The notes under the pieces are model-generated. The model saw only the letters and a list, made by a program, of their open reading frames with translations. It had not been told where the DNA came from and searched no databases. From NCBI RefSeq assembly GCF_032714495.1, contig NZ_JAWDKB010000008.1, forward strand, positions 1 through 50,752: a DNA stretch of 50,752 nt, written 5' to 3'. The translations under genes were made by a program, and so were the position numbers. Numbering within the stretch: the stretch's first letter is position 1; every line of letters begins with the position of its first letter. The DNA comes from Methanorbis rubei (GTDB lineage: Archaea; Halobacteriota; Methanomicrobia; Methanomicrobiales; Methanocorpusculaceae). This document shows, in pieces, positions 3,114-50,624 of the stretch.

Positions 3114-3494
3114 CGCTTGGAGTAACCACGGAATGCACGGAAATTTCACGGAGTTTCACGGAAATCGCATGCCTGCGGCCTGCTCACCGCTTCGCGGGAA
3201 TGCACGGAGAACGCCTGCGGCGCCGGATTCGCATGCCTTCGGCCTGCTCACCGCTTTGCGGGAATGCACGGAAGAATTAAGAGTATGAGTATGTGTTGTC
3301 TGCTATTGTTTAGAGATGCCAATCTCCTTATTTCTTCCGTGCATTCCCGCAAAGCGGTGAGCAGGCCGAAGGCATGCGAATCCGGCGCCGCAGGCGTTCT
3401 CCGTGCATTCCCGCGAAGCGGTGAGCAGGCCGCAGGCATGCGATTTCCGTGAAGCTCCGTGAAATTTCCGTGCATTCCGTGGTTACTCCAAGCG
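3114..3494. repeat. Family B palindrome B1: 163-bp near-perfect inverted repeat
   Basis: The left arm 3114-3276 and right arm 3332-3494 are each 163 bp and differ at one position by eye (GAGTTTCACGG against GAGCTTCACGG). The loop is 55 bp. The arms consist of CACGGA words plus two copies of module C per arm (3167-3200, 3231-3264; mirrored at 3344-3377, 3408-3441). The flank at 3075 (GAAATAGTATAAGGGAGC) matches the family B left flank. The element separates the HNH cassette from the lysine genes. Confidence 0.9.
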
Positions 3495-10385: not shown

Positions 10386-10809
10386 GCTCCGCCCACGATT
10401 CGCATGCCTTCGGCCTGCTCACTGCTTCGCAGGAACACACAGAGCTTCACGGAAATGAATTATTGTATATCATAAAATATTTTATTGGTTTTGTTTCGGA
10501 AATTTTTCTGAATAGGAGTTACGCGAAATGAAATAGCATAAGAAGAAAGGGTTTCTCTGTCTTCGGTTTTCCGTGGTTACTCCAAGCGAGGCCACATACA
10601 AAAAATTCGATCTCCTTATTTTTCTGTGCATTCCGTGGTTATTCCGAGCGAGACCACCTACAGAAAATCCCAAACAATGAAGTTCATCACCGCGTAACTC
10701 CTATCTGGAAAAATTATCGCAGAAATATTTTCATGACATAAAAAAATAAAAAAAAATACTTTTGAATTTCGTGCAGTTCACGTCTGCTCCGTGTTTTCCG
10801 TGGGCGGAA
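10386..10809. repeat. Family A palindrome A2 with nested, degenerate B3
   Basis: The left end GCTCCGCCCACG (10386) is followed by module C (10402-10435). The right end is GTTCACGTCTGCTCCGTG then CCGTGGGCGG (to about 10809). B3 (10510-10708) has ends GAATAGGAGTTACGCG and CGCGTAACTCCTATC but contains two copies of the right arm (CCGTGGTTACTCCAAGCGAG and a variant) and no left arm. The spacer holds no gene. Confidence 0.85.
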
Positions 10810-10822
10810 CGACGAAATAATT

Positions 10823-17340: not shown

Positions 17341-17576
17341 GAAACGCGAATTACGCGAATAAAAAAATCGCCAATGGCGATTTTTTAAAAAATAAATTGT
17401 CTGTGTGTCTCATAACGGATGCATCTGTATGAAAATAAATTATTTTTGTAAATCTCAAAAATTGCCATTGGCGATTTTTTATTCGCGTTATTCCGCGAAG
17501 CTGCGAAGCAGTGAGCACGACGGAACGGCGTGCAAAGCGGTGAGCAGGCCGCAGGCATGCGATTCGCGTTTTAAAA
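17341..17576. repeat. Family D palindrome D1
   Basis: The outer ends are GAAACGCGAATTACGCGAAT and ATTCGCGTTTTAAA. Each arm contains the palindrome AATCGCCAATGGCGATT or its near match (17362-17386; right copy around 17461-17480, AATTGCCATTGGCGATT). The right arm additionally holds module C (to 17560), interrupted by a 17-bp block CACGACGGAACGGCGTG (17516-17532). It sits between convergent alaS and cbiE. Confidence 0.85.
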
Positions 17577-23424: not shown

Positions 23425-24192
23425 ATGAGACAATCAGGCATTGTACTTCTTGTGCTGGTTGTCGTTGCCGCATGCGTTCTCGCCGCAGGATGCATTGGTA
23501 CTGACAACAGTACAGTGACGCCGACTCCAACGCCGACGCCCTCGGTAGAGCCGGTCACCGTTATCACAGTTGACAAATTTGGCACTGCCATTCCGGCAAA
23601 TGATATGATCCGGTTCATTTTGCCATCGAATCCGACTACCGGCTATCAGTGGATTACCAAGAATGTTTCCGGTCTCGTGATCAATCAGACATATGAGGCA
23701 ACTCCGGTTGCCGAAGGTATCGTTGGCTCCGGAGGAGTTGAGATCTTCACGATCACTGCAGACAAAGCAGGAACGTATGAGTTCACTGCCGAGTACAAAC
23801 GCTCGTGGGAGAATGAGACTCCGGCTGCAACCTTTATCCAGTATCTGGTTTATGTCGATGCAACCGACACTCCGGCAGACATTCCGATGCTTTCCGTTGT
23901 GTTTGTTGGCGATGTGAATCCGAAAGCAGGCGAGGTGGTCAAGGTGATTACCGAAGGTAATCCGACTACCGGCTATGAGTGGACGATCACGAATGACACG
24001 CAGCTGAAAGTGCTGAACTCAACCTTTGCCACCTCGGCAATTCCGGGCTCAACGATGGTTGGTGTTGGCGGCTTCTATGAGTGGCTTGTCACCGCAGACA
24101 AAGCAGGAACGTATGAGTTCGCTGCCGAGTACAAGCGGTCGTGGGAGGATGAGCCGGTAGGCAAGTTCTTCTTCGATATCACGTTTGTGTGA
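23425..24192 (+). CDS. Secreted lipoprotein with two chagasin-type protease inhibitor domains
   Basis: The 255-residue protein has a signal peptide with lipobox LAAGC (lipid Cys 23) and a Thr/Pro linker (TPTPTPTP). Two copies of the chagasin/I42 fold follow. Each has the three inhibitory loops: NPTTGY (residues 69 and 179), a G-rich loop (GSGGVE; GVGGFYE) and RSWE in place of the usual RPWE. Chagasins block papain-like cysteine proteases, so the likely role is protecting the cell surface from extracellular or own peptidases. The last 60 bp of each unit (23758-23817 and 24094-24153) differ at four positions by eye, so the duplication is young or homogenised. No cysteine protease gene is nearby. 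Confidence 0.85.
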   Translation: MRQSGIVLLVLVVVAACVLAAGCIGTDNSTVTPTPTPTPSVEPVTVITVDKFGTAIPANDMIRFILPSNPTTGYQWITKNVSGLVINQTYEATPVAEGIVGSGGVEIFTITADKAGTYEFTAEYKRSWENETPAATFIQYLVYVDATDTPADIPMLSVVFVGDVNPKAGEVVKVITEGNPTTGYEWTITNDTQLKVLNSTFATSAIPGSTMVGVGGFYEWLVTADKAGTYEFAAEYKRSWEDEPVGKFFFDITFV

Positions 24193-31246: not shown

Positions 31247-31508
31247 GTTCCGCCCACGATTCGCATGCCTTCGGCCTGCTCACTGCTTCGCAGGAAAAAC
31301 GGAGTTTCACGGAATCTGAAAACAACTCATTTGATATGAAAATTAAATCCCAATTCCATTTTTAATCGGGGACTTGATACGAAGTATCAGAAGTATTTCC
31401 GTGCTGTTCACTTCTGCTCCGTGATTTTTTTTTCCGTGAAACTCCGTGTGTTCCGTTTTCCCTGCGAAGCAGTGAGCAGGCCGAAGGCATGCGAATCGTG
31501 GGCTGAGC
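31247..31508. repeat. Family A palindrome A5 with module C in both arms
   Basis: The left end GTTCCGCCCACG is followed by module C (31263-31296). The mirror copy (31460-31492) precedes CGTGGGCTGAGC at the right end. GTTCACTTCTGCTCCGTG lies in the right arm; the left counterpart is deleted. The loop, with TGATAC-GAA-GTATCA (31375-31389), is homologous to that of A3. Confidence 0.85.
31263..31296. repeat. Module C, 34-bp inserted repeat (about 15 copies)
   Basis: The consensus starts GCATGCCTTCGGCCTGCTCA and ends CCGCTTCGCGGGAA. Copies are at 3167, 3231, 3344, 3408, 10402, 31263, 31460, 34084, 37200, 41232, 46455, 50362 and 50465. A partial copy ends at 17560, and a split copy ends at 36109. 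It contains two mini-hairpins, GCC-TTC-GGC and CCGC-TTC-GCGG. All copies I find are intergenic and lie inside or at the edge of palindromes A, B or D. Confidence 0.9.
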
Positions 31509-33926: not shown

Positions 33927-34131
33927 GCTCCGTCCACGGAAAATCGGAACACACGGAAAAACGCACGGAAAAAATCACGGAGCAGACGTGAACACCACGG
34001 AATTCTCAAACAAATTTATTTCCGTGTTGTTCACGTCTGCTCCGTGATGTTTTTTTCCGTGGAGTTCAGTGTGTTCCGATTTTCCTGCGAAGCAGTGAGC
34101 AGGCCGAAGGCATGCGAATCGTGGGCGGAGC
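33927..34131. repeat. Family A palindrome A6, module C in the right arm only
   Basis: The left end is GCTCCGTCCACGGAAAATCGG. The right arm GTTCACGTCTGCTCCGTG is followed by TTTTC, then module C (34084-34115), then CGTGGGCGGAGC. The left arm has no module, so C was added to one arm (or lost from the other) at a clean junction. Confidence 0.85.
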
Positions 34132-35981: not shown

Positions 35982-36200
35982 GAAACGCGAATAGCGCGAA
36001 TAAAAAAAATCGCCAATGGCGATTTTTTATTCCACGAACCGGTGAGCAGGCCGAAACGACTCCTGAAAGGAGGAGTTGAACACGACGGAACGGCGTGTGG
36101 AAGGCATGCGATTCGTGCTATTCGCGTTTCAAAATCTCATCATATCCACTCATCACTAACCAGTTTACATTTTTATTCGCGATAATCGCGTTTCAAAATC
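35982..36200. repeat. Family D palindrome D2
   Basis: The left end is GAAACGCGAATAGCGCGAAT, followed by AATCGCCAATGGCGATTT. The right ends are ATTCGTGCTATTCGCGTTTC (to 36130) and a second ATTCGCGATAATCGCGTTTC (to 36196). Module C is present but split by about 45 bp containing a hairpin ACTCCT-GAAAGG-AGGAGT (36059-36076) and the 17-bp block CACGACGGAACGGCGTG (36081-36097) also seen in D1. Confidence 0.82.
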
Positions 36201-36977: not shown

Positions 36978-37257
36978 GCTCCGCCCACGGAAAAACGGGC
37001 CACACAGAAAAACGCACAGAAAAACATCACGGAGCAGACGTGAACAACACGGAATTTGAAAATAATAATGTTGCAAAAATATCTGATCGAAATTTTGAAA
37101 AACCACGAAATTTATTCGCGGTGTTGCATAATATTTAAAAAATTATTTCCGTGCTGTTCACGTCTGCTCCGTGATGTTTTTTCCGTGAAACTCCGTGTGT
37201 TCCCGCGAAGCGGTAAGCAGGCCAAAGGCATGCGTTCCGTTTTTCCGTGGGCGGAGC
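36978..37257. repeat. Family A palindrome A7, natural empty site for B
   Basis: The ends are GCTCCGCCCACGGAAAAACGG and CCGTTTTTCCGTGGGCGGAGC. The left arm has CACGGAGCAGACGTGAAC; the right arm has its complement and an added module C (37200-37233). The loop (ACGGAATTTGAAAATAATAATGTTG...) matches the parts of A4 on either side of the nested B4, so A7 shows A without B. Confidence 0.85.
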
Positions 37258-41207: not shown

Positions 41208-41412
41208 GCTCCGCCCATGGAAAATCGGGACGCATGCCTTTGGCCTGCTTACCGCTTCGCGGGAACACACGGAGCTTCACGGAAAAACATCACGGAGTAG
41301 ACGTGAACACCACGGAAGAAAAAAATTATTGTGATATTTCCGTGTTGTTCACGTCTGATCCGTGATTTTTTCCGTGCGCCTTCTGTGTTTTCCGCTTTTC
41401 CGTGGGCGGAGC
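41208..41412. repeat. Family A palindrome A8
   Basis: The left end GCTCCGCCCATGGAAAATCGG precedes module C (41232-41265, left arm only). CACGGAGTAGACGTGAAC and GTTCACGTCTGATCCGTG face each other, and the right end is CTTTTCCGTGGGCGGAGC. About 40 bp beyond its right end are shared with A9 (GAGCTAC, ATGA, CGTTAGTTG, ATAAACGAATT). Confidence 0.85.
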
Positions 41413-46429: not shown

Positions 46430-46515
46430 AAAAAAAACGCGAATGGCGCGAATCGCATGCCTGCGGCCTGCTCACCGCTTCGCAGAATAAAAAAATCGCC
46501 AATGGCGATTTTTAA
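46430..46515. repeat. Family D element D3
   Basis: AAAACGCGAATGGCGCGAAT is followed by module C (46455-46486), AATAAAAAAATCGCCAATGGCGATTTTT and no right half. Module C sits at the junction between the outer repeat and the inner palindrome, the same place as in D1 but on the other arm. Confidence 0.8.
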
Positions 46516-46619
46516 GAACTTATGAAAATTACATATTTTTGGATCGTTTTTTTTTCGTTTGGAAAAGTATAGAGATTTTTTCATTCGTGTTTCAGATGTT
46601 CATTTTGCGTACCATGACG

Positions 46620-50283: not shown

Positions 50284-50624
50284 TAGGAGTTACGCGGTGT
50301 AAAATAGCATAAGAAAAAAGGGTTTCTCTGCCCTTGGTTTTATTTGGGGCAACCACGTATCGCATGCCTTTGGCCTGCTCACCGCTTCGCGGGAACACAC
50401 TGAACACACGGAATTCCACGGAAAAAAACACAGAATACCGCTTCGCTTACGGAAAACACGGAACGCATGCTTTCGGCCTGCTTACCGCTTCGCGGGAAAG
50501 CCTAAGGAAGTTGGAATTTCACATCGGAGACATCTACACATACCCGTACTCTTAGTCTTTCCGTGTTTTCCGTAAGCGAAGCGGTATTCTGTGTTTTTTC
50601 CGTGGAATTCCGTGTGTTCAGTGG
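50282..50624. repeat. Family B palindrome B7 with two module C insertions in one arm
   Basis: The left end is AATAGGAGTTACGCGG. The left arm carries module C at 50362-50395 and 50465-50498; the right arm (from about 50551) carries neither. The loop (50510-50555) contains CACATACCCGTACTCTTAG, the reverse complement of the B2 loop orientation. The right terminal repeat is missing. Confidence 0.85.

Follow-up and report, generated by a model that had tools for sequence, protein, structure and literature searches.

Module C of Methanorbis rubei, a probable mobile double-hairpin DNA cassette with recurrent paired changes in its stems

The closest described counterparts of the repeat considered here are the double-hairpin elements of Allomyces mitochondria and the repetitive hairpin-forming elements of sponges (PMC2800124), the GC clusters of yeast mitochondria, such as GC42 (PMC4478555), and the REP, BIME, and REPIN sequences of bacteria with their RAYT transposase (PMC2817692, PMC3116915). 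Template switching has loop inversion and multiple compensations as its published signatures, and it yields compensatory change by itself (PMC8794818). The archaeal repeat, module C, has the features by which double-hairpin elements are recognized: two adjacent hairpins, presence or absence at the same site between relatives, and compensatory stem changes.

The window, that is, the whole stretch of DNA analysed, is contig 8 (NZ_JAWDKB010000008.1; 50,752 nt) of the 1.83-Mb genome of M. rubei (G000). Flanks and copies were analysed in the genome stretches around module C in G000 and its relatives, which comprise a sister species (G012) and further relatives (G016, G024, and G032). Module C is 31-32 nt long and consists of hairpin H1 (GCATGCC-loop-GGCCTGC), a TYA linker, and hairpin H2 (CYGC-TTC-GCRG). 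The consensus folds into two hairpins on both strands, as DNA and as RNA, and by folding and by a covariance model (R1) alike, the unit that is repeated is the pair of neighbouring hairpins. Within the window there are 14 occurrences of CYGCTTCGCRG, where shuffling predicts 0.2, and 10 of the 31-mer with up to three mismatches, where 0 are expected. The copies in the window are as follows:

3167..3197, plus strand: module C, CCGC/GCGG, H1 loop TGC
3231..3261, plus strand: module C, CCGC-TTT-GCGG
3347..3377, minus strand: module C, CCGC-TTT-GCGG
3411..3441, minus strand: module C, CCGC/GCGG, H1 loop TGC
10402..10432, plus strand: module C, H1 GCATGCC-TTC-GGCCTGC, linker TCA, H2 CTGC-TTC-GCAG
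17530..17560, minus strand: chimeric copy, module C continuing into a second unit, the hairpin GCACGCCGTTCCGTCGTGC-TCA-CTGCTTCG
31263..31293, plus strand: module C, left arm of an inverted pair, CTGC/GCAG
31462..31492, minus strand: module C, right arm of the inverted pair with the 31263 copy, CTGC/GCAG
34085..34115, minus strand: module C, CTGC/GCAG
36032..36062, minus strand: chimeric copy with a substituted left hairpin, ..AACTCCTCCTTTCAGGAGTCGT-TTC-GGCCTGC
37203..37233, minus strand: module C, linker TTA, CCGC/GCGG
41232..41262, plus strand: module C, linker TTA, CCGC/GCGG
46455..46485, plus strand: module C, unpaired change, CCGC-TTC-GCAG
50362..50392, plus strand: module C, H1 loop TTT, CCGC/GCGG
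50465..50495, plus strand: module C, H1 stem change, GCATGCT (GCT-TTC-GGC)

A preliminary description of this DNA had set four CTGC-TTC-GCAG copies apart from a CCGC majority. These copies, starting at 10402, 31263, 31462, and 34085, are real, and the others are mostly CCGC-TTC/TTT-GCGG; the unpaired form at 46455-46485 had been overlooked. The accompanying claim that the GCC-NNN-GGC hairpin varies in its loop only does not hold, given the stem change at 50465; genome-wide, H1 stems vary and the loops include TTC, TGC, TTT, TAC, TCC, GAA, AAA, and others. The second unit is joined to module C at L083, L092, and L165:1521 as well as at window position 17530. At L193:360 and L197:420, H1 alone tips a longer palindrome, CGCGAATC-GCATGCC...GGCCTGC-GATTCGCG, most clearly in L197. 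Nearly all matches to the pattern GCA..TGC-TYA-CYGCTTCGC in 31 family genomes have the same type of H1; the H1-like hairpins GCACGAC/GCCGTGC and GCACGGC/CCCGTGC, with a similar linker and H2, are found in G016 (L036:1457) and G032 (L157). A reading of the bottom strand as a DNA mini-hairpin (GNA-type loops, GCGAAGC core) is broken by the loops AGA and AAA in the H1-like hairpins of other species.

Copies were counted with the 31-mer at up to three mismatches and, separately, with the covariance model. The 31-mer search of 33 family genomes gives 90 copies in G000, 77 in G012, and one or two in three further species, the remaining genomes having none; the model gives 143 matches in G000 (about 120 of them full-length and strong), 135 in G012, 18 in G024, nine in G032, five in G016, and at most a few in the rest of the genus. 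Module C is mainly intergenic; 27 of 204 copies lie within a mechanically called open reading frame of at least 120 aa, some of these frames being doubtful. In G000 and G012 together, 47 module-bearing intergenic regions lie between convergent genes and 20 between divergent genes, and relative to tandem genes module C is on the same strand 37 times and on the opposite strand 32 times. Adjacent modules face each other as inverted pairs in 20 of 29 cases.

The hairpins together form one precisely insertable 35-nt block, which the preliminary description had missed. The flanks of module C fall into five or more unrelated contexts. For 116 distinct filled contexts one empty counterpart could be singled out as best, and against it the insert measures 35 nt in 96 and 36 nt in 14. 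One such block lies in the window:

34085..34119, minus strand: 35-nt block exactly missing from the orthologous element of G012 (locus L222; empty site ATTTTC|CGTGGGCGGAGC)

From the empty G012 site alone, gain and loss are indistinguishable. Between L081 and L098 a single outer element differs in having or lacking module C in each of its two arms. The words at which insertion occurs, CG|GAA and CG|AAT, lie in larger composite palindromic repeats. In 89 of 204 copies, against 43 by shuffling, the trinucleotides to the left and right are identical, which is compatible with a 3-nt duplication only in part; in one major context, GCTCCGCCCACG-ATTC, there is no target duplication.

Among the hosts of module C are composite palindromic repeats, 200-550 nt long and with GCTCCGCCCACG at their ends, represented in the window by the following:

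10386..10810, no strand: composite palindromic repeat around the 10402 copy, with GCTCCGCCCACG / CGTGGGCGGAAC as terminal inverted repeats
31247..31508, no strand: composite palindromic repeat with module C in each arm
33927..34131, no strand: composite palindromic repeat around the 34085 copy
36978..37257, no strand: composite palindromic repeat around the 37203 copy
41208..41412, no strand: composite palindromic repeat around the 41232 copy

The composite at 10386..10810 is missing at the orthologous site in G016 and G032. At 10511-10704 of the window lies a nested 194-nt element, AATAGGAGTTACGCG...CGCGTAACTCCTAT, which is missing in G012 and has a clean 3-nt CTG duplication at its site; it is likely a separate MITE-like family. 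Other repeats include the hairpin AAAAATCGCCAATGGCGATTTTTT, which belongs to composites with the CGCGAAT word and recurs in the window at 17357-17390, 35999-36032, and 46485-46518, and a 65-nt repeat with 92% identity at 23753-23817 and 24089-24153. At one intergenic site (L002 and L104) the two sister species carry different families of composite repeat.

Because the covariance model prefers paired copies, pairing statistics were based on copies within seven mismatches of the consensus, unpaired forms included, some of them located through the model; pairs are numbered by position in the 31-mer, starting at 0. Across 66 distinct sequences, 96.5% of cells are paired, against 17-43% when the partner is slid; both sides have changed at four of the 10 pairs, and 20 cells are changed on both sides, against 4.9 +/- 1.8 after shuffling. 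Pair 21-29, at which CCGC/GCGG and CTGC/GCAG differ, is C-G in 122 of 177 copies, T-A in 49, and mismatched in six (C-A five times, T-C once, T-G never). Other paired changes affect 20-30 (seven copies), 4-12 (four copies), 0-16 (two copies), and 22-28 (one copy). TTGC/GCAA is present in four copies, several copies carry two or three paired changes together, and L175 has TCAC/GTGA plus GCATACC/GGTCTGC. Since 49 cells are single-sided or mismatched, pairing in the stems is strong yet far from absolute.

The preliminary description had called for a covariation test with a phylogeny of the copies, and had taken descent of all CTGC/GCAG copies from one copy, with unpaired changes common elsewhere, to speak against selection on structure. 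Unpaired changes are common, as the 49 cells attest; single descent is rejected by a tree of flanks plus linker from which both hairpins were excluded. On this tree pair 21-29 switched about 19-20 times, with 8-10 of the changes forced by supported branches; having few columns, the tree gives approximate switch counts, and gene conversion would inflate them. In independent contrasts for this pair, 7.7 of 8 change jointly on both sides (p 0.0078), which supports a recurrent paired change and not one subfamily's founder mutation. Origin of all CTGC/GCAG copies from one double-mutant copy finds some encouragement in context I, whose copies, with GCTCCGCCCACG-ATTC flanks, are nearly all CTGC/GCAG and tend to cluster, and in gene conversion of the 11-nt tract, which could reduce the true number of mutations. 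CTGC/GCAG is nevertheless found in contexts II, III, and IV as well, beside CCGC/GCGG copies with very similar flanks; the tree refutes the strictly vertical form of this explanation, and a single origin is very unlikely. Paired forms could alternatively spread among copies through gene conversion. Stem covariation is usually read as evidence for selection on RNA, and purifying selection on a functional RNA or regulatory structure, e.g. a processed 3' UTR hairpin, would fit the high paired fraction, the mostly intergenic copies, and the excess of convergent over divergent intergenic regions. Against such a role, which the preliminary description had entertained, a search of the window at the Rfam gathering score returns only a tRNA and no match to module C; single mismatches are G-T in 20 cases and A-C in 24, where a stranded RNA would tolerate just one kind, and this near equality, together with the random orientation to tandem genes, argues against a stranded RNA. 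Chimeric and unpaired copies are common, and sister species differ in presence or absence at orthologous sites. A role as RNA or regulatory structure is thus quite unlikely.

A hairpin-recognising enzyme, also suggested in the preliminary description, would have its model in the HUH (Y1/RAYT) transposases that serve bacterial REP/REPIN. Mobilization of this kind would suit the shortness of the hairpins, the many copies, and the way in which adjacent pairs mostly face each other as in BIMEs; the Y1 domain PF01797, however, is absent from all 25 genus genomes searched, with control genomes positive, and such an enzyme is very unlikely to move module C. No RVT_1 domain was found in G000 or G012 (genome about 96% complete), on which ground a retroelement driven by a resident reverse transcriptase was rejected. 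Each of the eight neighbouring proteins that were scanned has its match in an ordinary cellular family (RadA/Rad51, HAD, CBS, SerRS, MobA-like, MMPL, and others). Alternatively, module C could be an internal module of MITE-like composites moved by a DDE transposase, with the paired forms being co-copied subfamilies. The GCTCCGCCCACG terminal inverted repeats of the composites, the CTG duplication flanking the nested 194-nt element relative to G012, and DDE_Tnp_1 genes in both G000 (with one internal stop) and G012 lend themselves to this explanation. A search for the DDE_Tnp_1 family, however, found neither element termini nor module C near these genes in the fetched flanks, and the unrelated contexts with empty counterparts, at least five in number, indicate that module C moves or recombines independently of any single composite; the explanation is unlikely. 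Low probability also attaches to an enzyme-free hairpin parasite propagated by replication, in which template switching alone would copy the single-stranded double hairpin and join it at word arrays; if this were true, the spreading process itself would also maintain stem pairing.

We consider it probable, with some reserve, that module C is a mobile double-hairpin DNA cassette whose pairing is kept at least partly by copying from arm to arm. In five copies the loop is the exact inversion, GAA or AAA, of TTC or TTT, and in four of these the H1 mismatch is mended to GGCATGC, giving a perfect 7-bp stem, which is seen in two of the 172 other copies. A single template switch across the hairpin would produce just such an inverted loop with a mended stem, in agreement with the published signatures; hence arm-to-arm copying probably accounts for at least part of the pairing, and selection, or spread from intact copies only, may add to it. 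The preliminary description had seen selection on structure in the conserved pairing. Pairing is conserved beyond chance, but because template switching can yield compensation alone, selection is not required. Under the cassette reading, module C would enter CG|GAA and CG|AAT words of the composites as a block of about 35 nt, comprising 31-32 nt plus a possible target duplication of about 3 nt. The arms of a hairpin may then template each other during replication or repair: a mutation in one arm would pass to its partner or be undone, and the loop would at times be inverted; spread mainly from copies with intact hairpins would add to the pairing. Concerted evolution of facing modules, by copying across the large palindromes, was not seen: arms of facing pairs are no more alike (2.35 mismatches) than same-context copies elsewhere (2.06).

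A literature search, with subscription journals largely outside its coverage, returned no account of such repeats in Methanocorpusculum. Like bacterial REP, BIME, and REPIN sequences, module C consists of short hairpins between genes, numbers about 100 or more in a genome, and often lies in inverted pairs that face each other, but it differs from them in belonging to a genus in which no Y1 transposase was found (25 genomes searched). It resembles template-switched hairpins (PMC8794818) in its multiple compensations, perfected stems, and inverted loops, taken as events of one step; that work concerns mainly rRNA and microRNA hairpins, whereas module C is a repeat family. Two closely related genomes contain more than 200 of its natural copies, intermediates and inverted loops among them, alongside empty sites; with these, arm-to-arm copying and selection could be told apart by counting. 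Like GC clusters, module C is a hairpin-forming, probably mobile intergenic cassette with possible short flanking direct repeats, its palindromic units are merged and shuffled, and it has no transposase of its own; sequence, host, the target words CG|GAA and CG|AAT, and the two hairpins with a fixed TYA linker set it apart. With the Allomyces and sponge elements it shares short intergenic units of one or two hairpins with no known encoded mover, copy numbers that differ sharply between close relatives, and a few complementary stem substitutions; unlike them, it resides on an archaeal chromosome, inserted in word arrays of larger palindromic composites. The likeness to mitochondrial double-hairpin elements is one of features, and common descent is unlikely because of the taxonomic distance. 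Module C thereby extends the puzzle of the mitochondrial hairpin cassettes, the multiplication of elements without an enzyme, to an archaeal genus with cultured members.
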